A stretch of DNA of 64,000 nt from positions 124,001 through 188,000 of the forward strand of contig JAPNXP010000001.1 of the NCBI GenBank assembly GCA_028753945.1, read 5' to 3'. The stretch is from Hexactinellida sp. DTS-2022 (Eukaryota > Porifera > Hexactinellida). Of this stretch, positions 1,355-49,746 are shown piece after piece. The stretch's first letter is position 1. Every line of letters begins with the position of its first letter. A model generated the notes under the pieces. The model saw nothing but the letters and a program-made list of their open reading frames with translations, searched no databases and had not been told where the DNA came from. The translations under genes were made by a program, and so were the position numbers.

Positions 1355-3656
1355 TTAGGAGGGCAGAGAGGGGTCGCCCCCCTCCAGCTCGCGGTAGCCC
1401 CCTGAGGACAGAAAGGACCGCTCGTAGTGCACGGTGCAGTAGTACCTATCCGCAATAGTCGCGAAGTTGGTGGGAGAGAGCGTGGCCTGGCACACACAGC
1501 ACCTGAAGCACCAGCGATGGAACGCCTTGTCCGTGGCGCCCACGAACTCCACCTGGTAGACCTGCTTCCCGCAGACGGCGCACTGGTTCTGTCCGTACTG
1601 CTGAGTGCCGGCTCCGAACTTGCGGTGCTTCCCGGGGGGGCTGCTCTCCCCTGCTCGCGACACCCTGGGGCTCACGGGAGGGGTCCGGAGGAAACTCTCC
1701 TTTCTGATCTCTCCGATGTCTTCCTTCAGGAGCGTGATGAGGGTCCGGTCGTTGACCCCCTGGAAGAGGACCTCCCCCTCGTACCAGAGGATGCCCAGCT
1801 TCTTCCCGGTCTTCAGGATACCGGTCAGAGCGTCGAATATGTTCGCAGTCTCATCGAACAAACAACCGAACTCCACCTGCGTCTGTCCGCCCGGAACCAC
1901 GTGTCCCAGTCGGAGTATCTCCTCCACCAGCTTCTGCACCTCGCCCCCCACCCACTCCACGGCCCTCTGCACGCGGTCCTCTCGCGCCGTCTCCGCGGGG
2001 TCCTCCCCCTTAACCACCTCCGGGCCCGGGCCCGGGGGCGGGGCTGTCTCCTCTATCTCCTGCGAGAAGCTGAAGGGCGCCTCTCGGGCCAGAGGGGACG
2101 TGGAGGGGACAGAGGGGACCTGTCGGCGCCAGGCCTGCGAGGGGCGCGAGTCGTCCGGGCCCTCTGACACCTTTACGGCCTCCATCCGCATGGAGGCGAA
2201 GGAGGGTCTCTTCTTGGCCAGGTACTCCTCCGAGGGAGGGTCCGGCTGGTCCAGCGGCTCTGTCGCCGCGTAGCTGCCGAGCACCTGGCGGAGCTCGTTC
2301 AGACTCTCCTCCTGCAGCCGCACCACCTCCGGGGTTACGTCCTTGCTCACTAGGAATGCGTGGGGCGGAGGGATCACCTGCTCGTGGAGAGGCACTGGGG
2401 ACGCGCGCGGCTTCCGGGGCCCGGACCTGGGGGAGATCCGGCCCGGCCCGGCGGGCTGCATGCGCTCCTTGATGGAGGCCAGATTGGAGGAGGTGGACAC
2501 GAGTCTGGGGCCAGGGCGAGGGGGCGAGGGCGGGGGCGTGTCGATGCGGCGCATAAACTGGTCCGGTATCCGGATACGCTGTGGCTTCCTAGCAACAGAA
2601 AGGGACGTATGGAATGTGTAGCGAGTATAGCAACCGAACTGACCTGGTTATCCGCTGCAGATCCTGCGCTGAGCGCATGGGCAGCTCGTGCTGCGTGGCC
2701 AGCCGTCGGAACCTTTCCATCTTCTTCATGAAGTCCCGCTCCTCCTCCTCCTCGCGCCGCTTCGCCAGCGCCAGTCCGGCCTGAGTCGGCTTTGGCTGCG
2801 AGTGGGAGGTCTTCTTGAAGCGCTCCCAAGACTCGAGCTCCGGGGGGTCGGGCCGCGGCTGGAAAGTGAAGGGCCCGTGCTCGGGGACTGCGGACTGCAC
2901 CGGCTTCTCCGGCTCGCGGGTCTTGGAGGGCCTCCGCTTGAGCGTGACGACGGTGGAGCTGGCGTCGGAGAGGCGCTGCACGCGCTGGGCGAGCGGCTCC
3001 ACCTCCTCGGGCTCCCCGAAGTTCTGCACGCGGGAGAGCGAGGGGGAGGGCTGGGCCCCGAAGAGAGTGGCCAGCTGCGCGCGAGCCATCGCGCTCTTGC
3101 GGTGCCCGTAGGACTCGAGGATGGCCTCCTTGTCCTCCGGCTCCACGCCCCTGTCCCCCGCCCGCATGTCCTCCACGCTGAGGGCGGGCCCGTTCGGGCC
3201 GGACACCTTGTGTCGCTGTGAGCTGAGCGTCCAGTTGGAACTGAATGCGAACTTGTCCGCCACTGAGTGCAGAGCCTCGTCCCAGGCGCTGAGGTGCGTG
3301 GAGTCGGAGGTGTAGTAGAAGTGGCGCTTCTTCCTAACCATGATGCACATCTTGCGGTCGTGCTGGAGGCCGCGCGGCCACTTGACACCTCTGAGCTCCG
3401 AGACGGGCTCCCCGGTGCGAATCCTCACAGAGGGCTCCTTGAGGTCTATTCTGAGGACGTGGCTCTTGGCAGAGGCGTGTCGGAAGCAGAGCAGAGACCC
3501 GTCCCCCTTGAGCACCCAGAACCGGTTGCGCCACACGGAGGGGAGCAGCGGGCGGTGCTGCAGATGGACCAGGTAGTCGGAGAGGGCAACCGACTCTTCC
3601 TCCTTTTCTAGAACAGGCTTAGTTCCTACGTGTGGAGTCTTGATAGGCTCCGTCAT
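1355..3656 (-). CDS. PH-Costars-LIM domain protein (2 exons)
   Basis: Exons 3656-2644 and 2588-1355 (55-bp intron) give 748 aa. Domains in order: a PH domain (about residues 25-130; RNRFWVLKGDGSLLCFRHAS opens it and a terminal helix HLSAWDEALHSV closes it), a long charged and proline-rich linker, a Costars domain (about 548-635; LVEEILRLGHVVPGGQTQVE, then FDETANIFDALTGILKTGKK and YEGEVLFQGVNDRTLITLL) as in ABRACL and the ABRA C-terminus, and one LIM zinc finger (about 675-730; CAVCGKQ, HRWCFRCCVC, YYCTVHY). Costars and LIM proteins both act on actin, and PH domains bind phosphoinositides, so a membrane-to-actin adaptor is inferred. The start chosen is ATG 3656; an in-frame upstream ATG at 3731 would add a hydrophobic leader, but an acceptor-like CTCACACAG precedes 3656, so that stretch looks like 5' UTR. 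I know of no standard family with this order. Confidence 0.85.
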
Positions 3657-31322: not shown

Positions 31323-34300
31323 ATGGACATCGAACGGACCCTGGCCAGTCTTGTTCTGGGGAAGAAGGTAATTTGGGCGGAGGAGTCTGCCTCTTCGGAC
31401 TCTCTCTCCTGGAGCTCGGGCTGCATCGTAGCCATGCATCCCAACAGCATCGGCTCGGGCTCTGTCAACGGCGCGTTGGACCCGCTATCCAACTCCCACA
31501 GCCTCTGTCTGGCCCTGGAGTGCGACGACCGCGCCTCCTCTAACCGCGGCATCACCTGGCTGCTGCTCAGCAACTCCTCCCTCAAGCACGTCTACGTGCA
31601 GATCGGGGTGGGCCGCGTCAAGAAGCAGGAGGGGACCCACTCGCCCGTGATCTGGTACTACCGACCGCTGCTAAGCTCCTCCTCCTCCCTCCTGCCCATC
31701 GAGTTCCTGGGGGTCCCCCTGACCCTCCCCCCGCCCATGGCAGACTCCTCCGCCGTATCAGGACTAGACCTGGACAGCGCCAACGAGCTGCTCGACGAGG
31801 CCGGCCGGAAGGAAGTGCTGGACTGGTTCGACCGGGAGTGCTTCCTGAACTGCCTGCTGACCGGGGACCTGCCGCTGGCGGAGTACGCGGTGAAGATATT
31901 CAGCACGGACTACGGCATCTGGTGGAAGGGGATCGTCCGACAGCACGACCGGAGCTCCCGCGAACTGATCATACAGGATCCCTACCAGCAGTACCTGCGA
32001 GTGAACCCAAAGTTCGTCCTGGTGAGACTCATCTGCACACCCACGGGGTCCAACCGGACAATCGGCATTCAGCAAAGGAGCAGCAGTAAGTAGTCAGTTC
32101 CTGCGGTTATTCAGCTGGCCTGGAGCGGGGCAGGAGTGCAGTCTCGCGCTCTCTAGCGGCTCCAGGTACGGCTTTATTCATGAAAGCTATTCAACACTCT
32201 GTATATTGGTGTACATTCACTTGTTCATGCTATATTTATTGTCTGCTCTAGGCTCCACTCAAGACCCCCCTGTCTCCTCAGCTGCTCCCCTGCCCTCTGT
32301 CCCCCTCCCCCTCCCCGCCCCCAGCGCGGTCACCTCGCCTGTCCAGCCCGCAGAGGGGCCCAACGACCCCAGGTCCAAGAACAAAATACACTCAAAGAAA
32401 AGTGAGCTTTCTGAGAATGACTTCGCGGTGCTGAAAGGGATCGTGCAGTGTATGTCCCACCCGGCCCTCCCCTCGGACCCCTCAACAGCTGACCAGTCCC
32501 CTGCGTCGGTCCCCGCGGCCCCTCCTACCCCTGACGACCCACGTCTGTTCCAGCCGCACCTCCCCCCTCACGCTCCCGGCTCTAACAAACCCAAGAACAT
32601 ATACTGGGGAGGCTCCCCTATCAGCAGCGACGAAGACAGTAACCAGATTGCAGCTTTGGAATGCGATAGGGCATGTAGCGACGAGAGGAACAAGCCGAAC
32701 AGAGGCTCGCAGGTGCGACAGGGGCCCGACACCAGCGAGAGAGGCAGGCCGAGACAGCTGTTCCCTCCGCAGCCAGCTGACCGCAGGCCCGAGCAGAGCT
32801 TCAAGCAGACACACGGGAGCAGAGGTCCGGAGCGGGGCCGGCGGTTCGGCCGCGAGGAGCGCGAGTGCCACAGGCCGCGGCGGGAGAGGGAGGAACCCGG
32901 ATACAGACACGAGCGTCACACCCGCGAAGCGCACAGCTACCAGCCTAGAGCCATGCATGCTGAATCAGAGCCCCCCGGGGATCCCGTCTGCGTGTCTCCT
33001 CTCCAAAGCAGGGGCCTCTCCTCTCCTCTGCTGATGCCCCCTCGGAACATGTCGCCCCCTCCGATGCCCCTCATCCCTCCGCCCCACCACTTCATGTCTG
33101 CGCCTTCTCTCCTGTCCCACCCCAACTTCATTCCCCCCGGCGCCGCCCCCTATCCCCAGCAGCTCTCCTACTCGCCCCCCTACCCCCCCGGCCCCTACCC
33201 GAACGGGCTGCAGCCACAACTCACTCAGGTCCCGGGCCCCTACTCCTCTCCCATACTATTCCCAAACTTTGCGAATCCGAATCCCCTCAACCAGTCCCCG
33301 CCGGCCCCCTGGGGGGTCCCTCTCCCGTCCTATCCGATCCCGAGCCACGCTCCGCGGTCCCCGGCCGTGGAGCGGAGCGGGCGGGGCAGACACGGGTACA
33401 AGAACAACCCCAACAAGCGGGACTTTGTTCTCTCCCACTTCAAGCAGGCGCACTCCCCCAGGGAGCTCTTCAGTAACATAATCCCCCTCGCGAGAGAATC
33501 CTCCCCTGAACCCAAGCGGACAGCCCCGCCCCAGGAGAAGCGACCAACAGCTGGGAGAGGGGAGAAGCAGGCCTCCCCTCCCGGGAACGAAGCGGACCCC
33601 AGCCCCCCCGTCTGCAGCCCCATCCTAGAGCCGCTCAGCGAGCCTCTCTCGGACCAGGAAGAGCAGGAGGGCCCGAGTGACGTCACAACACAGATTGCGG
33701 AACTCCCAAGAACGCCCGTGGCGCCAGCTGTTCTGTCTGTGGAGATAAAGTCCCCCGCCTCCGAGACGGATGTGGAGGAGTCCCGTCTCGAGATAGTCCT
33801 CCCGGGAGAGGACCCCTGCGAGCCGAGGGGTCCCCAGACCGCAGCTGCTGTCCCGCGGGTACTCGTGACGCAGGAGCTCGAACAGCCCGACGAGTCTCCC
33901 TCGCTAGAGGAGAGCAGACCGGTTCCGGAGCCATTAGTAACGCCTCCTGATAAGCTGACAGGTGTTCCCACCTGTGACGACCCACTGGTGCCAGACCCTA
34001 CAGCTCTGGAGAGGGCGAGAGTCCGGCCTCCGCTCAACGTGGCGCACAGACACGCAGAACCGCGGATACTGATAGCTCCTATCGACAACTCGGTTCTTCA
34101 CACCTCCTTCAGATCGGAAGCTAAGTCTCCTCTCTTCTCGCCGCCGCACCGAGCTACTCCTCTCCAGCTGCCGCTCCGGTACTCCGCCGCCATCTCCTCC
34201 GACGAGTCTCTCAGATTCAGCGTCCCCTTCCCCCTGCCCAAGACCCCGGAGGAGTCCCCCCAGTCCGACAGGAGCAACCCCAAGTCCCCATCGATCACGC

Positions 34301-36447
34301 CCTCCCCCTCCAACCTGCCCGCCGCCCAGACAGAGCCCCGCCCCGCGGAACAGCTGGAGCCGCTGCCGAGGGGCGCGAAGTCAAAGCGCGGAAAGCGCAA
34401 GTCTGATACGCCTGCGAGAAAGCGGCAGCGCCGAGCCACCACCCAGGTGCGCCTGTGGGACGAGGAGGTGCCCGGGCTCCTGCAAGACGACGCCTGTCTC
34501 TTCTACTGCCAGGCCATCCCCAAATGCCTCGAGTGCAAGAAGCACCAGCACCACTCCAGCATGTCCTACCTCACTCAGCTCGTCAACGAGAGACGCGCGG
34601 CCTGCGGGTTCATCGGGTTCCGGAAGCTCTCCGACCTCAACAAGACCAACTGCGTTGTGACTGGCTTCCTGACGGACAAGGAGGCGGACAGCTACGACCT
34701 GAACCTCTGGCGCTTCTCTCCCCCCTCGGAGCCCTCCCGCTGCATCCCCCCCAAGGAGGCGGTCTACCTGCTCACCTCGCTGCAGCGCTACTTCTGCGCG
34801 TGCATGCTCCCGGACGTGGAGCTGCACCACGCCGCCTCGCAGTCGGTCGCGCTCTCGCAGGTCCCCAACCATGGACACCCGGCCTGGAAGAAGCACGTGT
34901 ACCAGGCGCGGGAGCTGTGCGACGTGTGCGAAACCGCGATTTTCAGCGGGCACTTCTTCTGCGACGCGTGCAGCTACACGGTGTGTCGCAAGTGCTTCGA
35001 GCTGAAGTCCGAGCTGCCCGAGACGGAGCAGGACCTGTGCAAGGAGTTCATGTGGCGCTACTGCGCAAAGAAGCACCGCAAACACAAGCCGAGCGACCTG
35101 CTCATCGCAGAGATCGTCCCGCGGGACATTGTGACTGAGACTCACCAGGAGATGCACTCGGTCCTGAGGAAGCTGGATATTGACAGGAGCTGTGTGGTCT
35201 ACGAAAAGCTGGCCCTGCAGCCCCCTGACTCCAAGGTGTGTCCCGAGGCCATCCCTCTCACGGTCCCCACCCCCTTCCCTGTCCTCGCCCCCTACACCTA
35301 CCTCTGCGACGGGCAGATCCTCAACCTCCTCGACGCGAAGCACGAGGCGAACATTCGCCAGTTCCGCCAGTACTGGAACCGCGGGGAGCCTCTGGTGATC
35401 AGCAACTGCCACCGGGACCTGTGCGCCGGCCTCTGGCAGCCCGAGAGCTTCTCGCGGGACTTCGGGGACGAGGTGGTGAAGCCGGTCGACTGCCTCACGC
35501 GCAACGCGGTCTGCACCATGAAGCTGAGCACCTTCTGGAACGGATTCACCGACATCTCCGAGCGCATCCAGTCCACGGACCAGGTCCCGCTCATCCTCAA
35601 ACTCAAGGACTGGCCCCCGGACCACGACTTCATGGACAAGATGCCGGAGCGCTACGAGGACTACACCGCCAACCTGCCCATGCCCGAGTACACCACTCGG
35701 GAGGGGACCTTCAATCTGGCCTCCAGACTGCCCCCAGAGTTCCTCAAGCCCGACCTGGGACCCAAAATGTACATCGCGTACGGGTCCGCCGCCTTCGACT
35801 CGATGGCCACCACCTCTCTCCACATCGACATATCGGACGCTATGAACCTTATGATATTCGTGAGCAGGTCTGTCACTACGGTCCCCGACGCTGACCTGGA
35901 GAGAATCATACAAGACGAGATAACTCAGATCGATCAGCTGATCGCCGAGAGTTCCATCGAGGTACAGGAGCGAGCTAAGAACCCGAAGAACATTCCTGGC
36001 GCCCTATGGCACATCTTCTCAGCTGACGATAGTCCCAAGATCCGCCGATTTATCCGCAGGTACCAGGAGGAGACGAACACGCCTGTAAAGGAGACCTCGG
36101 ACCCCATTCACGACCAGTCCATCTACCTGGACCAGGAGCTGCGGCGGCGGCTGGCCGAGGAGCAGGGGGTGGTCGGGTGGGAGATCATCCAGTTTGTGGG
36201 CGACTCCATCTTCATTCCTGCTGGGGCGCCGCATCAAGTTAAGAACCTATTCAACTGTATCAAAGTGGCAGAGGACTTTGTTTCCCCTGAAAATGTGTCG
36301 CATTGCATTCGCCTGACAGAAGAGTTCCGACACCTGTCTAAGTTCCACACGAACCACGAAGACAAACTCCAAATTAATAACATAGTCTACCATTCGGCCA
36401 AGGACGCGATTGGCACTCTGAAGAAGGTGCTGGAGAAATACAGTTAG
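31323..36447 (+). CDS. KDM3: KDM3-type H3K9 demethylase (2 exons)
   Basis: Exons 31323-32085 and 32252-36447 total 4959 bp (1652 aa). JmjC oxygenase that removes mono- and dimethyl from H3K9 in the nucleus. The N-terminal exon encodes the conserved KDM3 N-terminal region (MDIERTLASLVLGKKVIWAE, YLRVNPKFVLVRL). A long disordered Pro-rich segment follows, then the Cys-rich zinc finger (CLECKKHQHHSS; CDVCETAIFSGHFFCDAC; CRKCFELK), and the JmjC domain (FNLASRLPPEFLKPDLGPKM, LHIDISDAMNLM, PGALWHIFSADD, FIPAGAPHQVKN). The iron ligands are visible: His1445 and Asp1447 in LHID, His1582 in APHQV. The usual ending (EDFVSPENVSHCIRLTEEFR) is complete. Family members are KDM3A, KDM3B and JMJD1C; a single ancestral copy cannot be placed more finely. 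Only one 166-bp intron. Confidence 0.95.
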
Positions 36448-42485: not shown

Positions 42486-45400
42486 ATGCATACCCAATCC
42501 ACGGATCCACTTTCTAGCATACAAGATTGTCCCGTCTTTGAACCCACCAAGGAGGAGTTTTCAGACCCAATCTTCTACATCACAAAGATACATCCCATAG
42601 GGCAGAACACCGGCATCGTGAAGATACGGCCGCCACCCGACTGGAAGCCTCCCTTCTGCAGAGACGGAGAGCAGTTCCAGTTCTACCCCCGCATCCAGTG
42701 TCTCCGCGAACTGGAGGGCGTCAACCGCGTGAAGCTAAACTTTACCGACAATTTTATTCATTTCTGGGACCTGCATGGGCAGAAGATTGTAAAGCCAGTT
42801 GTCGGGGGGCAGCCTCTCGACCTCTACAAGTTCTTTGACCTGGCCAACAAGGAGGGCGGGTTCCACCAGGTGTGCCTCCGGAAGCTGTGGTCTGGCATCG
42901 GCAGACAGCTTGGGCTCACATCCGACGTCCAGTGGTCCAGCGTGCTCAAAGACAAGTACCGCAAGCTGCTCTACCCCTTCGAGTACTTCCTCAAGATCCG
43001 CTGTCTCCTGCTCAAGGGAGAGGGGCTGGCTGAGGCCATGTACTCCAGTTCCAGGGGTCTGTTGCGTCCACTCTTCTCCTCGGTGGTGGAGTACGGGGCT
43101 GTTATGTGCTGCGCAGTAGAAACTCAGTCGAATAAGTCGGTTCTTACTTTCGATTCTGTCCACTGTTCTGACTCAGCTGCGCCTGGAGCTAAGCCCAAGG
43201 CGTCCACGCAGGGGAAAGACATAACGTGCCAGGCCTGTCGCTCCGGAGACGAGGAGCAGGTGCTGCTCATCTGCGAAGCCTGCGAAGTGGGGTTTCACAC
43301 CTTTTGTCTGTACCCTCCCCTGGAGGCGGTGCCCCCTGGCGACTGGCGCTGTCCCGGCTGCATACACAAGCTCTACAAGCCTTCCAGCGTCTTCGGCTTC
43401 GAACACACGAAGCTTCCTCTCTCGCTCAACTCGTTCTCTCACGCCGCGGACCTCTTCAAGCGGGCGTACTTCGAGAACAAGCCTGACAAAGTGTCCTGTC
43501 GAGAAGTGGAGCTGGAGTTCTGGAGCCTGCTGGCTTCTCCCGACTCTAGCATAGACGTGCACTACGGATCCGACCTGCACTCATCCCAGCACGGCAGCGG
43601 GTTCCCGTGTGACGTCACCGACTGCGCGCCCTCCGACCAGCACTACATCGAGAGCGGCTGGAACCTGAACAACATCGCCTATCTGGAGGGCTGCGTCCTC
43701 AAGCACGTGCCTGGCGACATAAACGGACTCAAGAAGCCCTGGCTGTACGTGGGCATGTGCTTCTCCACTTTCTGTTGGCACGTGGAGGACCACTGGAACC
43801 ACTCCATCAACTACCTGCACCTCGGGGACCCCAAGACCTGGTACGGGGTGCCCCCCTACGCGGCGAAGCAGTTCGAGAGCTGTGTGCGCGAATATGTCCC
43901 CGGGCTGATCGCGAACGACCCCCAGCTGTTGCACCACCTGATCACCATGATCCCTCCCAGCGTTCTCCTGGCGTACGGGGTCCCCGTGTTCCGGGCCGAC
44001 CAGCGCCAGGGAGAGTTCATCATCACATTTCCGAGAGCCTACCACGCCGGCTTCAACCAGGGGTTCAATTTCGCAGAAGCTGTGAATTTCGCGACCAAAG
44101 AGTGGTTCAAAATCGGAAGAGAGTGCGTCCAGGTGTACAAACAGGTCCAGAAGCCTCCAATCTTTAGCCACAACGAACTCATTTGCAGATGTTTCGCTTC
44201 CCCCCTCACCCCGGGCTGTTTCGGCCCATCCCTCTTTGAAGACATCCACACAATGGTCACCACAGAGTTGGACGCTCGGAAGCGAGTATTCCAGACCCCC
44301 ATGCACCACGCCCAGCTAAACTTCGAGCTCTTGCCAGAGACACACAGGAACTGCCACAGCTGCAAGACAGTCTTGTTCCTCTCCTCCATCATGTGTGACG
44401 GCTGCAGCTCCTCTCGCTTCTGCCTGGACGACCTGGACAGCCCCTGTCCCTGCGGCTCTGTAAGTCGGGTGTTCCAGTACAGGTACTCGGGCCAGGAGCT
44501 GCTCTCCATTCTAGAGGGCTCCAAGAAGCTGGCTGACGCGTACACGGAGTGGATGAGGGAGGCGGAGGCCGTTACTACTGCCCAGCAGCTCGAGAGACCG
44601 TCCCTGAGTGAAGTCGAGGGGTTGGTTGAGAGAGGCAGGAATCTCAAATACGAAGGGGACTATCTAACAGAGCTGTGTCTTATAATTAACAAGGCTAAAC
44701 TTGTTGCTAAACGCACACAGCAGCTCCTCTCGAAGCGAAGCGGAAGCAGACATTCCTTTTGGCTCTACGAGTTGTCAGAACTCGAAGAGTTATCTTCTGA
44801 GCTAGACTCTCTCCCCTGTATAGTGCCACAAACTCATTTCTTGCAAGAAAAGCTTCTCGAAACGAAAATACTCTTTGAGAAAGCCCAACATCTTATAGAG
44901 ATTAATTCTTTGGACGTTGAGCTTATCGGAGACGTGCTCTCTCAGGTGAATCAGCTGCAGGTGCACTCCCCTCTGTGTGGCACCCTCTCGGACCGACACA
45001 AAGTCGCCTCTTGGCTCAGAGATTACAACAAACTCTACGAGACCTGCACACAGGACACGTCCTACAAGGCCGCCCTGCTGGAGGCGCAGCAGATGCTGTC
45101 GGTAGCCAAGGACCTGCCCGTCACCTGCCAGGAGGTGCAGGCGTCCGTCGTGTGGCTGGACGAGTCAGTCTCGCAAGCCAACCTTTGGTTAAAGCTCTCT
45201 CAAACGGCCATCAGAGGGAAGAATAGACGCACTTTGGAAATTCTACAAGACATTTATAACGAGAATGATAAGTTAATGATCTCAGTTCCAATCCCCAGCG
45301 AGCTGACTAACACCATTAGAGACGCGCAGCTGTGGAAACACACTCACTCGGGCCTGCCCCCAACCCCCACCCTCTCCCAGGTGGAGGAGCTGGTAGCGAC

Positions 45401-46556
45401 CGCAGTGGGGCTTCCCGTGCTGCTACAAGGACTGGACAACTTGAAAAAGCTAAGTTCTGAGGCTGACAGCTGGAAACAAGTCCTGACAAAGCTGTTTATA
45501 ACCGAAAACTCGGATAAAGATATCTTGTTTAGTCTCCTCCCTGCGGCCTCGGTCCCTCAGGACGCCTCGTCCAAGCTGCATACACTGAAGAGTACCATGG
45601 ATTGTCTCGCCTCCCGGTCGAGACACAGCCAGCAGCAGGAGTCACAACTAATGACTTCGCTCCTGAAGCAAGAGCTCTGTTACATTCGCGAAATTCGAAA
45701 GTGTAACATGGAGATCCTGTACACCGCTTCCTCTCCCTCCCCGCCCCTCGACAAGATCCTGTGCGCCACCTGCGGAAAGCGCGCTTCGGAGCAGATGATA
45801 TTCTGCAACCGGTGTCTCGCCCTGCAGCACGGGCCCTGTGCCGGCCTCTCCCTCGCTAACATTGAGGTCACGCAGAATACGTTTGTGTGCGACAAGTGTG
45901 TGCGCACTAACAGACCTACTCTCTCGCAGGCAAAGTACCTGCTGAGCCTATGGGACGTGCAAGTTAGATCTCCGTACACGCGCGCGCTCCAGCTGTTGGT
46001 GGAGAGGGCGGAGAGATGGGAAGCCAGGTCTGCCAGCCTCCTGGACTCCTTCCAGCCGGTAGAAATGGAGACAGAGTCTCCTACCGGCCCCTGCTCTGCC
46101 CTCAACGCCCTCAATCTGTCCCAGCAGTACAAGGAGATAGAGGAGCACTTGATAGAGGGCCTGTCGGTAGAAATAGTTTTGGAGAACACCAGCGCTTGTG
46201 TGGAGCTGTGGAGGGAGGCGTTCCGACAGAAGAGGAAAAACCGTGGGCGAGGGAGGAAAATGGGATGTCCCAACAAACAGGATTCCTCTCAGACCAGGAA
46301 GCCTCGTCTGCTCAAACACAAGAAACCTGAAGCTTCGCATTCTGGCCCTCAGCTGCAAAACAAGGCTGAGTCTGGTAGTGACGACACTTGTGCCGCTATG
46401 GAATGCAACTGTCTGCAAGAAGAGAACGTAGACTGGATACAGTGCGACACCTGCGAGGCCTGGTTCCATTTCAACTGCGTGGGTCTCACGAAGTCGGAGG
46501 TCAATACCATGGGCGACTACAACTGCTCGGCTTGCAACACATACACAATCAAATAA
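42486..46556 (+). CDS. KDM5: KDM5/JARID1 H3K4 demethylase (single exon)
   Basis: 1356 aa in one exon. Removes di- and trimethyl marks from H3K4 in the nucleus. Domains in order: JmjN (CPVFEPTKEEFSDPIFYITK), ARID (QPLDLYKFFDLANKEGGFHQ, DKYRKLLYPFEYFLK), PHD1 (CQACRSGDEEQVLLICEAC through WRCPGCI), JmjC (CWHVEDHWNHSINYLHLGDP, ITFPRAYHAGFNQGFNFAEA), C5HC2 zinc finger (CHSCKTVLFLSSIMCDGC, CPCGS), PLU-1 helical region, PHD2 (CATCGKRASEQMIFCNRC) and PHD3 at the C-terminus (CNCLQEENVDWIQCDTCEAW). Iron ligands His432, Glu434 and His520 are intact. The full set including PHD3 places it with KDM5A/B-type rather than KDM5C/D-type or fungal proteins. Being intronless at this size is unusual. Confidence 0.97.
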   Translation: MHTQSTDPLSSIQDCPVFEPTKEEFSDPIFYITKIHPIGQNTGIVKIRPPPDWKPPFCRDGEQFQFYPRIQCLRELEGVNRVKLNFTDNFIHFWDLHGQKIVKPVVGGQPLDLYKFFDLANKEGGFHQVCLRKLWSGIGRQLGLTSDVQWSSVLKDKYRKLLYPFEYFLKIRCLLLKGEGLAEAMYSSSRGLLRPLFSSVVEYGAVMCCAVETQSNKSVLTFDSVHCSDSAAPGAKPKASTQGKDITCQACRSGDEEQVLLICEACEVGFHTFCLYPPLEAVPPGDWRCPGCIHKLYKPSSVFGFEHTKLPLSLNSFSHAADLFKRAYFENKPDKVSCREVELEFWSLLASPDSSIDVHYGSDLHSSQHGSGFPCDVTDCAPSDQHYIESGWNLNNIAYLEGCVLKHVPGDINGLKKPWLYVGMCFSTFCWHVEDHWNHSINYLHLGDPKTWYGVPPYAAKQFESCVREYVPGLIANDPQLLHHLITMIPPSVLLAYGVPVFRADQRQGEFIITFPRAYHAGFNQGFNFAEAVNFATKEWFKIGRECVQVYKQVQKPPIFSHNELICRCFASPLTPGCFGPSLFEDIHTMVTTELDARKRVFQTPMHHAQLNFELLPETHRNCHSCKTVLFLSSIMCDGCSSSRFCLDDLDSPCPCGSVSRVFQYRYSGQELLSILEGSKKLADAYTEWMREAEAVTTAQQLERPSLSEVEGLVERGRNLKYEGDYLTELCLIINKAKLVAKRTQQLLSKRSGSRHSFWLYELSELEELSSELDSLPCIVPQTHFLQEKLLETKILFEKAQHLIEINSLDVELIGDVLSQVNQLQVHSPLCGTLSDRHKVASWLRDYNKLYETCTQDTSYKAALLEAQQMLSVAKDLPVTCQEVQASVVWLDESVSQANLWLKLSQTAIRGKNRRTLEILQDIYNENDKLMISVPIPSELTNTIRDAQLWKHTHSGLPPTPTLSQVEELVATAVGLPVLLQGLDNLKKLSSEADSWKQVLTKLFITENSDKDILFSLLPAASVPQDASSKLHTLKSTMDCLASRSRHSQQQESQLMTSLLKQELCYIREIRKCNMEILYTASSPSPPLDKILCATCGKRASEQMIFCNRCLALQHGPCAGLSLANIEVTQNTFVCDKCVRTNRPTLSQAKYLLSLWDVQVRSPYTRALQLLVERAERWEARSASLLDSFQPVEMETESPTGPCSALNALNLSQQYKEIEEHLIEGLSVEIVLENTSACVELWREAFRQKRKNRGRGRKMGCPNKQDSSQTRKPRLLKHKKPEASHSGPQLQNKAESGSDDTCAAMECNCLQEENVDWIQCDTCEAWFHFNCVGLTKSEVNTMGDYNCSACNTYTIK

Positions 46557-47039
46557 TTTTTTCATTCACACAAAAAGAATCAAAATTCGCCAAATTACTA
46601 TTTCCGAAAATTGATTCGCCATATTGGCAGTAATTTGATACAAACGCTAATAATCACTACACTACAACTGTCTTAATTCGCTATTATACTTCTTGTATTA
46701 CTTGCTAATATAATATTGTTAATTTTAACTCTCAAGTTGCATTTTATATAAATATTTGTAGAGTTGTTAATATTTATAATCTAAGTTAGACGCTCTTACT
46801 GTCCTCAATTCTGTATTTTGCTAACAAACCTAACTATACTATTTCTGCTAAAAGAGGTGGATTATTGATTTTGGCAATAACTCTTTGGGTATAAGCGCTT
46901 ACAAGAACATGCAAGTCGAAATGTCAATAATAATCATGAATCGATTATTTTAATTAAATGAATATTGAATTTTCCGAGTTACTACAGTGTAGCAAGTAAA
47001 ATAACAAGTCGCATTTCCACGAAAACTTGCTATTAGAGG

Positions 47040-47340
47040 AACATATTTAAAATGTTATGAGATGAGGCCACGGCCTAGTATGGAGACTAGCCGCCTAGTC
47101 GCCCCAACTCATAGGGATGTTATGTCAGTGGTTTCGTCCCATTGCAGGGACTCATCAGGAGGGTAACCCTCGACCACTTTTATTGCTCCTCGAGCCACCT
47201 AGTGTCTCTAGGTTACCAGTCGACTGCCGGACTAATCCACAGACTAACTCATGTAGTGTCCCGTACTGACACCTAGTGCCTTTCCCAGGGACACTACTCC
47301 TGAAGGTCTAGTGATGCCCGTGACAGATACATTACAGCGA
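47040..47340 (-). mobile_element. structured element hosting a hammerhead ribozyme
   Basis: About 300 bp of balanced GC in AT-rich DNA. Besides the ribozyme it holds a perfect 10-bp inverted repeat GTAGTGTCCC (47253-47262) with GGGACACTAC (47288-47297), and small hairpins such as CCTAG-TGTCT-CTAGG (47199-47213). High self-complementarity with a hammerhead is the pattern of retrozymes and Penelope-like element ends, but no reverse transcriptase, primer binding site or second repeat copy is seen here. The edges are estimates. Confidence 0.5.
47127..47178 (-). ncRNA. type III hammerhead ribozyme motif
   Basis: Read 5' to 3' on the minus strand: stem III strand AGTGG (47178-47174), T and C of the cleavage triplet GTC (47173-47172), stem I GAGGG-TTA-CCCTC (47171-47159), core CTGATGA (47158-47152), stem II GTCCC-TGCAAT-GGGAC (47151-47136), core GAAA (47135-47132), stem III strand CCACT (47131-47127). 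Every conserved core base is present, all three stems pair without mismatch, and the A15.1-U16.1 pair forms. Self-cleavage is predicted between 47172 and 47171. Because stem I is closed by a loop and stem III is open, this is the type III layout. The loops are small (3 and 6 nt), so the loop-loop contact that speeds cleavage in cells is uncertain. Confidence 0.85.
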
Positions 47341-47428
47341 ATAGTTATGATTGGTGAAATTATAGCCTCCACAAAAATATGTACCTAGAAACAATTTCAA
47401 AAGAATTATTACTTGTTACAAAATGTGA

Positions 47429-47527
47429 GGTCACGCAATATTAGGTCACGAATTGTAAATTGTAATGCACCTCGAAATATCTGGTCACGAATTGTACGAC
47501 CTTAAAATGTGAGGTCACGAATTGTAT
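47429..47527. repeat. four copies of GGTCACGAATTGTA
   Basis: GGTCACGCAATATT (47429), and three copies of GGTCACGAATTGTA (47444, 47483, 47513), all in the same orientation with unequal spacing. The reverse (TACAATTCGTGACC) recalls the TGTGACGA units upstream of SC5D at 38649. Confidence 0.65.
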
Positions 47528-47542
47528 GTATCCCAGGATTGC

Positions 47543-47570
47543 CGTGGGTATGGGGATTCCCATACCCACG
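47543..47570. repeat. perfect 12-bp hairpin
   Basis: CGTGGGTATGGG, loop GATT, CCCATACCCACG. A second partial palindrome (GGGGATTCCCATATGGATCCCC) continues to about 47620. It could be the core of a decayed inverted-repeat element. Confidence 0.7.
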
Positions 47571-47667
47571 TGAATGGGAATCAGATTTCCCCCGTGGGGA
47601 TTCCCATATGGATCCCCATAGGACACCCTTATGGATATCAATACAACTGATACAAGGCCATTACACC

Positions 47668-47803
47668 GCTTAATTAAATCACAAATTAATGTTACGGTAT
47701 ATAAGTATAGGAGAAAATTCCAGATTTTCAAGCTCCTAATTCAAATTTTCCAAAAATCATACTCCAAAAGGAGCGTCTCGCGCTCCTGTTTAATTCCTTG
47801 ATC
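47668..47803. repeat. dispersed repeat family C, copy 2
   Basis: Matches 30755-30886 in the same orientation, including CTCCAAAAGGAGCGTCTCGC. It is followed by GGTTATAACTGGGGCTTACTGTA, which resembles the right terminus of the 30900 MITE. It ends about 30 bases before the EFHB start codon, so it likely contributes to the promoter or 5' UTR. Confidence 0.8.
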
Positions 47804-47831
47804 TGGTTATAACTGGGGCTTACTGTACCTA

Positions 47832-49746
47832 ATGTATGCAAGCATAGAAATGGCTGCTGGTAAGCTGAGTCAGAGGAACTCGACTGCGCGGGACTGTCTC
47901 TCTGGGGAGAGCAAGAGACACACCACCCCTCCCCTGGTCAAGGTGTTTGAGGGTCAGACCCGTCCTGACGTAGGGAAGGCCCGTGTCCTGCATGCCTTCG
48001 CCCAGGACACCTCCCACTCGACCCACGAGCCACACGGCGTGACCACCAAACCCTCCGTGCAAGCCAAGGAGCTGCTCAACCCGCAGCCCAAGACCAGGTT
48101 CCAGGAGACCCTCAATGACACGATGGAGGGCGCTTATTTCAGGAAGAAGCTGAATAGACTAGGTTGCTCCATAGCCTCACAATAATTTGGTTGTTGTATA
48201 TTTTATTTATTTCATTTAGGGAAATGTCCGGATCCCAGGATGAATCTCCCTGACGACCAACAGCTGCTCCGGAATGAGATACCCTTCGGTAACCCCACAG
48301 TGTATAACGACACAGCTGGCGAGATTGTGAATCCTGAGAAGAACCGCGATAAGGTGGAGGAGGAGTGGAAGGAGGGACAGGACCTGTACAAGACGAGTCA
48401 CAACAGCTACCCCCCGGGGGACATGCCCGACCGGAACTACGACTGGTCGGTGTTCCCGCGGGACTTCAAGTACGGAGTGGAGACGCCGCATGACGTCAGA
48501 GGGACCGGCGTGAGTCGCGCCATGAAGTGGTCCCACGAGGCGGAGGAGGAGCAGGCCACGCACATCGTGCAGAAGAGACTGGACGACTTCAGGGAGAGAA
48601 CTCAGCCGCAGATCGGGAAGGTGAGTATAATGTCTTAATTCGGATAATTATACCGATTAACTAGGTGCATGACCCGATTCGCGACACGCTCCCAGTGGGC
48701 AACAGCCACGTGTTCGGCGTGTATCTGAAGCCGGACGAGTTCGGGGCGGGGGACCTGATCCACATGCGGGGGCCCGAGGGGGTCCTGCGCGGCCGGGACA
48801 GGGACAGGGGCGTGATAGCCTTCATAAGACAGCAGCTGAAGAAGGCAAACTACCACAACTTCGAGTCTCTCAAGGCCGCGTTCGAGCATTACGACAAGTC
48901 CCGGAGCGGGACGATCAGCGAGGAGGAGCTCAGGGACACCTGCTACCAGTTCGGCCTCCCGCTCGACTGCAACCAGCTGGACCTGCTGATGGGGTACTGC
49001 GACAGCGACGGACAGGGGTACATAGACTATGTCCGCTTCAGCAACTTCCTGAACTGGAAGGACAAGCTGCCAACTGGCTTCCAGATAGTTACTATAGACG
49101 AGGAGCCGTCTGCACCAAAGGTACCTATACCCCTCCCCCCAGCCCCCAGCTGAGTTTATAATGCTAATAGGAGAGCGCCCCCCCGACAGAGGCCCCGCGG
49201 GACCCTACGCCCGAGCAGATAGAGGCGGAGTACGCACAGGCCCTGGTGAAAGAGGGAGACATAGAGTACGATCCCTCCAAGCGCAAGGCCACGCCCAAGC
49301 TCCTCTCCAAGCAGATTGACAAGAGCGCCGCCCCCATCAAGACCTCTTCCCAGGCCATAGCCGCTACCGTGGGCGGCATATCTACCCGGGAACTGCCGTC
49401 CTTTGGCGTCCCGACAGTGCGGTCCGACCTCCCGGCCCCGCGCGTGAAGCGCGTCTCCGACTACACCAACTACGGAGACGAGTCCGACGCGTTCGGACTG
49501 CTGTACCCCTCCGTGTACTCCAACCGAGGCGTGCACGAGAGGGACTTCTTCGTGTCGCGCTCCCAGGAAGAGATCAAGAAGATATTCACCAACATAGGTG
49601 TCGAGATGGAAGATAAGGTGTTCGAGGAGCTCTGGAAGCGGGCTCTCGAGCTGGGGGGCGGCCAGGTCTCCGTTGAAATATTCAGAGCGTTGCTGGACAG
49701 CTTCGCCTCTGACCGGACTCTTGAGACAGCTGTGAGTCCGCATTAA
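47832..49746 (+). CDS. EFHB: EF-hand family member B, ciliary (4 exons)
   Basis: Exons 47832-48162, 48220-48620, 48665-49120, 49192-49746 total 1743 bp (580 aa). EFHB (CFAP21) is a microtubule inner protein of motile cilia and has also been linked to store-operated calcium entry. Recognisable blocks: LPDDQQLLRNEIPFGNPT, DPIRDTLPVGNSHVFGVYLK, KPDEFGAGDLIHMRGPEG, LKAAFEHYDKSRSGTISEEE, RFSNFLNWKDKLP, and the C-terminal GVHERDFFVSRSQEEIKKIF. The first EF-hand loop is canonical; the second (DSDGQGYIDYVR) has Arg in place of the last Glu, so it probably binds calcium poorly. The third acceptor is an unusual GAG before 49192, needed to keep frame. The last codons VSPH read past a GTGAGT donor-like site; another terminal exon is possible. 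ATG 47850 is an alternative start. Confidence 0.92.

Follow-up and report, generated by a model that had tools for sequence, protein, structure and literature searches.

The window, by which we refer to the whole stretch of 64,000 nt of DNA analysed in the present study, contains a small ribozyme motif in the spacer between two genes. These neighbours were identified by their Pfam domains, namely JmjN/ARID/JmjC/PLU-1 domains of the KDM5 type at 42486-46553 and the C-terminal EF-hand of EFHB at 49171-49743, and the ribozyme lies on the strand opposite to both. The KDM5 gene is a single long open frame, as is a second large gene at 32026-36447 that appears JmjC-like by eye, and the genes of the window look dense and intron-poor for an animal. 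Regarding the host, TGF-beta and Ets domains are animal-specific, and a domain profile search of the genome found four and seven matches to them, respectively; the same search gave no matches for the Wnt domain, for which the positive control was likewise silent. The features of the spacer are as follows.

47053..47325, minus strand: solo LTR-like repeat of 273 bp that bears the ribozyme (genome matches with a shared 3' end; end motifs)
47127..47178, minus strand: type III hammerhead ribozyme (RF00008, scanner, fold, covariation over 75 copies)
47174..47178, minus strand: 5' strand of stem III, AGTGG, with its partner at 47127-47131 (scanner; stem III covaries in other copies)
47159..47171, minus strand: stem-loop I, GAGGG-TTA-CCCTC (RF00008, scanner)
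47152..47158, minus strand: core CTGATGA (RF00008, scanner, core conservation among copies)
47136..47151, minus strand: stem-loop II, GTCCC-TGCAAT-GGGAC (scanner; covariation)
47132..47135, minus strand: core GAAA (RF00008, scanner)

The type III hammerhead and its predicted fold

The initial annotation reported two core strings, a GTC cleavage triplet and three paired stems on the minus strand, and the sequence is as it described: from 47178 to 47127, the segments AGTGG, TC, GAGGG, TTA, CCCTC, CTGATGA, GTCCC, TGCAAT, GGGAC, GAAA and CCACT follow one another, and cleavage is expected between TC and GAGGG, i.e., between 47172 and 47171. The covariance-model check that it proposed with the Rfam hammerhead models also supported its reading of a complete type III hammerhead, because RF00008 (Hammerhead_3) matched 47178-47127 on the minus strand over the full model (1-54) with 61.9 bits (E 2.2e-11), which is above the gathering score of 48.5 bits. 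This was the sole Rfam match in the whole window, and a laxer Rfam scan of 45000-49500 added one match that fell far under the cut-off of its own family. A purpose-written scanner for type III hammerheads agreed, with 47178-47127 as its one site in the window, and the core CTGATGA...GAAA, the GTC triplet and the open stem III of this type are all present. Judged by the covariance model, the core, the pairing and the covariation described below, the feature is a complete type III hammerhead. Helix I consists of five pairs and a 3-nt loop; this loop had been regarded as less usual, a view that does not hold for RF00008 itself, since the structure line of that Rfam model has the same layout.

The claim that core and pairing together exceed chance was likewise upheld. 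Neither 385,269 reversed bases nor 20 shuffled versions of the window contained a scanner site, and a 26-nt motif, searched for in the genome as the suggested check for more copies, occurred with up to two mismatches at 320 places (157 + 163) versus none in the reversed control. A chance motif was ruled out by these results.

The predicted fold of the isolated 54-nt RNA is exactly the hammerhead structure (-20.7 kcal/mol, z -2.87), and an equally good fold was reached by two of 200 shuffles. When the whole 273-nt LTR is folded, the prediction retains stem-loop II and pairs other parts of the ribozyme with upstream sequence. The closing pair of stem II in other copies is C-G or T-A. In 63 of 88 copies, against 1.7 expected from shuffles, a box TGGTAAC or TGGTAGC precedes the ribozyme by 8-130 nt; in the window it is at 47212-47218 on the minus strand, and it can pair with the GTTACC of stem I. 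The longest complementary match between the upstream LTR and the ribozyme averaged 6.42 versus 5.96 in shuffles, which is too weak for a regulatory block.

The repeat family, its ends and its architectures

The ribozyme had been assigned to the KDM5-EFHB spacer. Both neighbours were confirmed; however, the ribozyme belongs to the repeat at 47053-47325 and is not peculiar to this spacer. When 46950-47500 was used as a genome query, 56 matches including the window itself were obtained, and the other 55 all lay inside 47043-47335. Most of the matches in the pile-up stop at one common 3' base, from which the window copy was delimited as 47325-47053 (273 bp). Its minus-strand ends are U3-type TGTCACGGGC at 47325 and U5-type CTCATCTCATAACA at 47053, in a TGT...ACA arrangement, and the ribozyme occupies nt 148-199; copies in general start with TGT and finish with CTCAYNNCA. 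RF00008 gave at least 68 scored genome matches, with 64 above the cut-off, and this count is a lower bound because 68 of 12319 first-look candidates were scored. The G+C content was 52.7% in the window LTR and 49.8-53.1% in L041, L043, L045 and L046. The aligned ends of the window copy are flanked by TATC and TTTT, with no convincing target-site duplication, and this copy is most likely a lone (solo) LTR that persists as a passive relic in the spacer.

Two further observations concern the distribution of the family. The interval C1:13.00-13.40 Mb holds eight exact motif places, all of which are minus-strand. L048 from this region matches L064 (13.9 Mb) over 578 bp at 94% but L062 (13.3 Mb) over only 127 bp at 85%, so these places do not simply form one duplicated block. 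In addition, L026 contains, at 2416-2469 (plus strand), a second hammerhead in the type III layout, in which all three stems differ in letters and the core is intact, and a piece related to it was present in L054 (1745-1827); it probably represents another LTR subfamily.

Target-site duplications were examined in the 61 copies with a recognisable U5 end among the 88 distinct ribozyme copies in the loci examined. An exact 4-bp duplication beside the upstream TGT was found in 19 of these 61, treated as solo copies, against 1.33 on average and at most 4 when the same test was run at 60 shifted offsets; the 19 include the window copy (TTTT) and L026 (TAAT), both of which were taken as chance. The window match is of low complexity and requires the start to be placed 48 bp outward, and the match in L023, which also counts among the 19, used an inner start, with the same GTAC at the proper start. 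A variant of the test that accepted any upstream TG yielded 24 of 63 copies versus a null of 4.75. Some of the 42 copies with a U5 end and no solo duplication are arms of composites, and the rest are unexplained.

Among composites, an exact 4-bp duplication was present in eight of ten, comprising all three direct ones (L041 CTCC, L042 CTAC and L043 ATAG) and five of the seven inverted ones (L010 ATAC, L021 ATAC, L044 ATAT, L045 CGTA and L046 CTAT). The remaining two inverted composites, L047 and L011, had no matching duplication, and L011 may represent two insertions because its arms come from different subfamilies. This test did not include L012 and L026, which have truncated arms, or L039 and L040, in which the repeats belong to different subfamilies; furthermore, L032 coincides with L010, and L030 and L033-L036 coincide with L046.

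Three arrangements of the ribozyme repeats are present: solos; direct pairs that enclose a short internal region with a purine tract; and palindromes centred on a hairpin at the repeat end. Both L042 and L043 have the LTR-internal-LTR form, at 684 bp each, with a type III hammerhead within the LTR, and L041 is a direct dimer with a period of 238 and almost no sequence between the units. L045 is a near-perfect palindrome in which two LTRs flank a 32-nt hairpin. L046 is one insertion with five LTRs, the LTR again holding a type III hammerhead: LTR, internal region, LTR and hairpin are followed by an LTR and more units in reverse, with U3-type ends on both sides and the same 4-bp duplication outside. 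The LTR pairs or arms of L041, L042, L043 and L045 are 97-98% alike. The predicted unit between cleavage sites is 238 nt in L041, 385 nt in L042 and L043, and 486 nt in L046. No long coding frame was present in the five elements checked, the longest M-to-stop frames being 70 aa in L043, 44 aa in L042 and 86 aa in L046. Whole direct elements are rare, and the internal region of L043 had four genome matches, two of them whole.

A hairpin of at least eight perfect pairs that starts in the last bases of the LTR was found in 13 of the 61 copies versus a null of 0.2, six of the 13 being located in two elements (four in L046 and two in L045). The sequences of these hairpins differ and their pairing is kept. 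The hairpin is followed by internal-type sequence in L011, L018, L021 and two repeats of L046, which indicates that it is not merely a by-product of palindromes. We infer from these arrangements that it normally belongs to the element, and that palindromes may form by self-priming of cDNA at this position. No tRNA-Met primer binding site was recognised by eye after the 5' LTR; the LTR is followed, also by eye, by TAATAACC... and the hairpin where a TGG-type site would stand.

Regarding a possible helper, RVT_1 gave at least 150 scored matches in the genome (of 608 candidates). Four elements, covered by flank pieces (L083-L090), were assigned to Ty3/gypsy by judgement from the length of the RVT_1 match and the layout, and their comparison with the ribozyme elements concerns short boxes only. 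The LTRs of these gypsy-like elements start with TGT, and TGA stands directly before the 3' LTR in all four, preceded by a clear purine tract in three; at the other LTR edge, ACA is followed by TAA. Exact 4-bp duplications were seen by eye in three of the four (CCAT, GTCT and AAAG) and not in the fourth. Similarly, a purine tract ending in TGA stands just before the 3' LTR in L042, L043 and L046; GGTGA followed directly by TGT is the box in L046 and L042, with TTGA in L043 and a TAA variant in L021. On the strength of these boxes, the ribozyme element was probably moved by gypsy enzymes. The sequence after the 5' LTR in the gypsy-like elements was TAAATAC, TAAATAC, TAATTCG or TAAATAAG, and not a TGG-type tRNA site. 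No gypsy or other autonomous element with a hammerhead LTR was found when the 150 RVT_1 matches were compared by eye with the first 100 motif places listed. Two of the places listed, L057 and C1:13.08 Mb, have an RVT_1 match less than 3 kb from the motif, and the partial frame in L057 resembles a non-LTR retrotransposon by eye.

Conservation of the ribozyme among copies

Across 24 loci, identity to the window copy was 91.1% (1161/1275) in the ribozyme versus 79.8% (3943/4939) in the rest of the LTR; these loci came from a whole-repeat search, and some are near-copies of each other. The trend was reversed in three of the 24 (L010, L022 and L026), where the rest of the LTR is better preserved than the ribozyme. 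In the distant subfamilies L041 and L045, the ribozyme alone aligns to the window.

The covariation alignment comprised 75 of the 88 copies, the 13 dropped being nine with indels or shifts, three identical rows of L046, and L057. In this alignment, 93.1% of the cells are paired, and six of the 15 pairs changed on both sides (31 cells). None of the covariation measures was reached by any of 500 shuffles, and this comparison should be read with the copies being related and the shuffles ignoring kinship. The core was intact in 73 of the 88 copies, a proportion that overstates conservation because loci were often chosen for holding the ribozyme. The second hammerhead of L026, with its new stem letters and intact core, also agrees with selection on the ribozyme.

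Relationship to known retrozymes and competing explanations

In the portions of the literature consulted, type III retrozymes with LTRs are described from plants and type I non-LTR retrozymes from animals (PMC4918200, PMC7229834, PMC7761336, PMC3088659, PMC7936874). The animal elements are portrayed there as having no LTRs, primer site or purine tract, and longer duplications (PMC7229834). The initial annotation considered type III unusual for an animal, and this was borne out by the literature, in which animal retrozymes are of type I. Type III hammerheads of animals are described in dipterans, termites and HDV-like RNAs, with a different architecture (PMC7936874), and two of the sources, as far as consulted, point to work in preparation on insect type III (PMC7761336, PMC7936874). 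An animal LTR retrozyme was not encountered in the accessible part of the literature searched, which covered few subscription papers and left bioRxiv preprints outside its scope.

The elements of this genome resemble the plant LTR retrozymes, as far as the source consulted describes them (PMC4918200), in having a type III hammerhead in the LTR, in occurring as LTR-internal-LTR elements, multimers and solo LTRs, and in being non-coding with 4-bp duplications and gypsy-like boxes at the LTR edges. The hammerhead in the LTR, direct LTRs around a non-coding internal region (L042 and L043) and 4-bp duplications were all found here, and LTR ends and a polypurine tract shared with Ty3/gypsy are represented by the short boxes in four elements. 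Conversely, the host is an animal, the units are 238, 385 and 486 nt in contrast to 400-1000 bp in plants, and the G+C content of 50-53% falls short of the >55% given for plant retrozymes in the text available (PMC7229834). A hairpin is located near the place of the tRNA-Met primer site of the plant elements, with no recognised site, and palindromic insertions are present (five of seven inverted composites have exact duplications), in both of which respects these elements differ from the plant ones as described.

We consider that the window copy is very probably a solo LTR of a non-autonomous LTR retrotransposon that carries a type III hammerhead in its LTR, i.e., an animal LTR retrozyme. The duplications, the direct LTR elements and the palindromes are the strongest results for this view, and catalysis, the circles and the helper are its weakest links. 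A DNA transposon or MITE whose long terminal inverted repeats each happen to hold a hammerhead is an alternative that appears unlikely. Ginger-like, integrase-related DNA transposons have TGT...ACA ends and 4-bp duplications, as do the palindromes L010, L021, L044, L045 and L046, in which the duplications are exact, and the two ends of the repeat resemble short imperfect mutual inverted repeats by eye. However, copies are not all bounded by inverted repeats, as this alternative entails: the ends and duplications are shared by solo and direct-repeat elements, the 3' repeat is preceded by a purine tract, and the box resembles that of the gypsy-like elements; moreover, a ribozyme suits an RNA intermediate and not cut-and-paste. 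That the family is a structurally complete and catalytically dead relic is very unlikely: the predicted fold of the whole LTR, which partly buries the ribozyme, would fit it, whereas the covariation, the better preservation of the ribozyme than of its flanks and the intact ribozymes in elements whose repeats are 97-98% alike argue against it.

A metazoan non-LTR retrozyme or a Penelope-type terminal repeat is highly improbable. The animal host, small non-coding hammerhead repeats, short predicted circles (units of 238-486 nt) and tandem dimers are features in common with metazoan non-LTR retrozymes in the account consulted (PMC7229834), L041 being a tandem dimer with almost no internal region, and Penelope-like elements and Terminons, as partially surveyed, are animal retroelements that likewise hold a hammerhead in their terminal repeats (PMC7229834, PMC7936874). 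In contrast to the type I hammerheads and >4-bp duplications of the former, without LTR or purine tract, the present elements have type III, LTR-internal-LTR structures with TGT...ACA ends and a purine tract, and 4-bp duplications (PMC7229834, where consulted); the latter are described with minimal type I hammerheads in these sources (PMC7229834, PMC7936874), and Penelope-like elements have their own reverse transcriptase and bear such hammerheads in pLTRs, whereas the hammerhead here is of type III and the five elements checked contain no long frame. Membership in both groups was rejected on type III and the 4-bp duplications. The RF00163 search gave no matches among 73 scored of 14702 genome candidates, with a positive control that was silent. 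Least credible of all is a regulatory ribozyme encoded by the host at the KDM5-EFHB locus; the motif is intact and stands between the two genes, but it is antisense to both and lies in a repeat with 55 further genome matches. A function at this locus was rejected because the ribozyme is one of many repeat copies.

The type III topology is shared with the hammerheads of dipterans, termites and HDV-like RNAs, for which a longer helix I with an internal loop, an extra hairpin and a loop-loop pseudoknot, and no LTR element, are described in the part of the source consulted (PMC7936874). Outside this genome, no relatives were found with the exact 27-nt motif in IMG/VR or with a 44-nt pattern in GTDB contigs. 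A looser 28-nt pattern of core and stem II matched two IMG/VR contigs, with two exact matches in L091 (9603-11461) and four in L092 (6625-8251), a few hundred bases apart. The scanner detected no type III layout in either contig, and the matches are probably phage hammerheads between genes. As evidence of transfer, these contigs were set aside for that reason, and the shared stem II may be convergent.

If the elements are animal LTR retrozymes, transcripts spanning two or more LTRs would cut themselves at each hammerhead, and the unit-length RNA (238, 385 or 486 nt) would be closed into a circle and copied by reverse transcriptase supplied by the gypsy elements of the genome. The gypsy integrase would recognise the TGT...ACA ends and insert the cDNA with a 4-bp duplication, and the cDNA may take the form of a solo LTR, a dimer, an LTR-internal-LTR element or a palindrome. 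In the last case, the 3' end of the cDNA would fold back at the hairpin of the LTR 3' edge and prime on itself. We tentatively propose, as a possibility suggested by the architectures, that in these animal LTR retrozymes the hairpin at the LTR 3' edge replaces the tRNA primer site, that reverse transcription of the circle ends in self-priming, and that palindromic cDNAs with two U3 ends are integrated by gypsy integrase. Retrotransposition by such a self-primed, hammerhead-dependent route was not met in the literature searched.

Hundreds of copies of a type III motif in an animal LTR architecture break the rule that separates plant from animal retrozymes in the literature as far as consulted. 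An animal LTR retrozyme shows either that ribozyme, LTR and gypsy helper came together independently or that transfer took place, and it would offer a compact animal system for testing retrotransposition through circular RNA, in which the palindromes may record the products of reverse transcription directly in genomic DNA.
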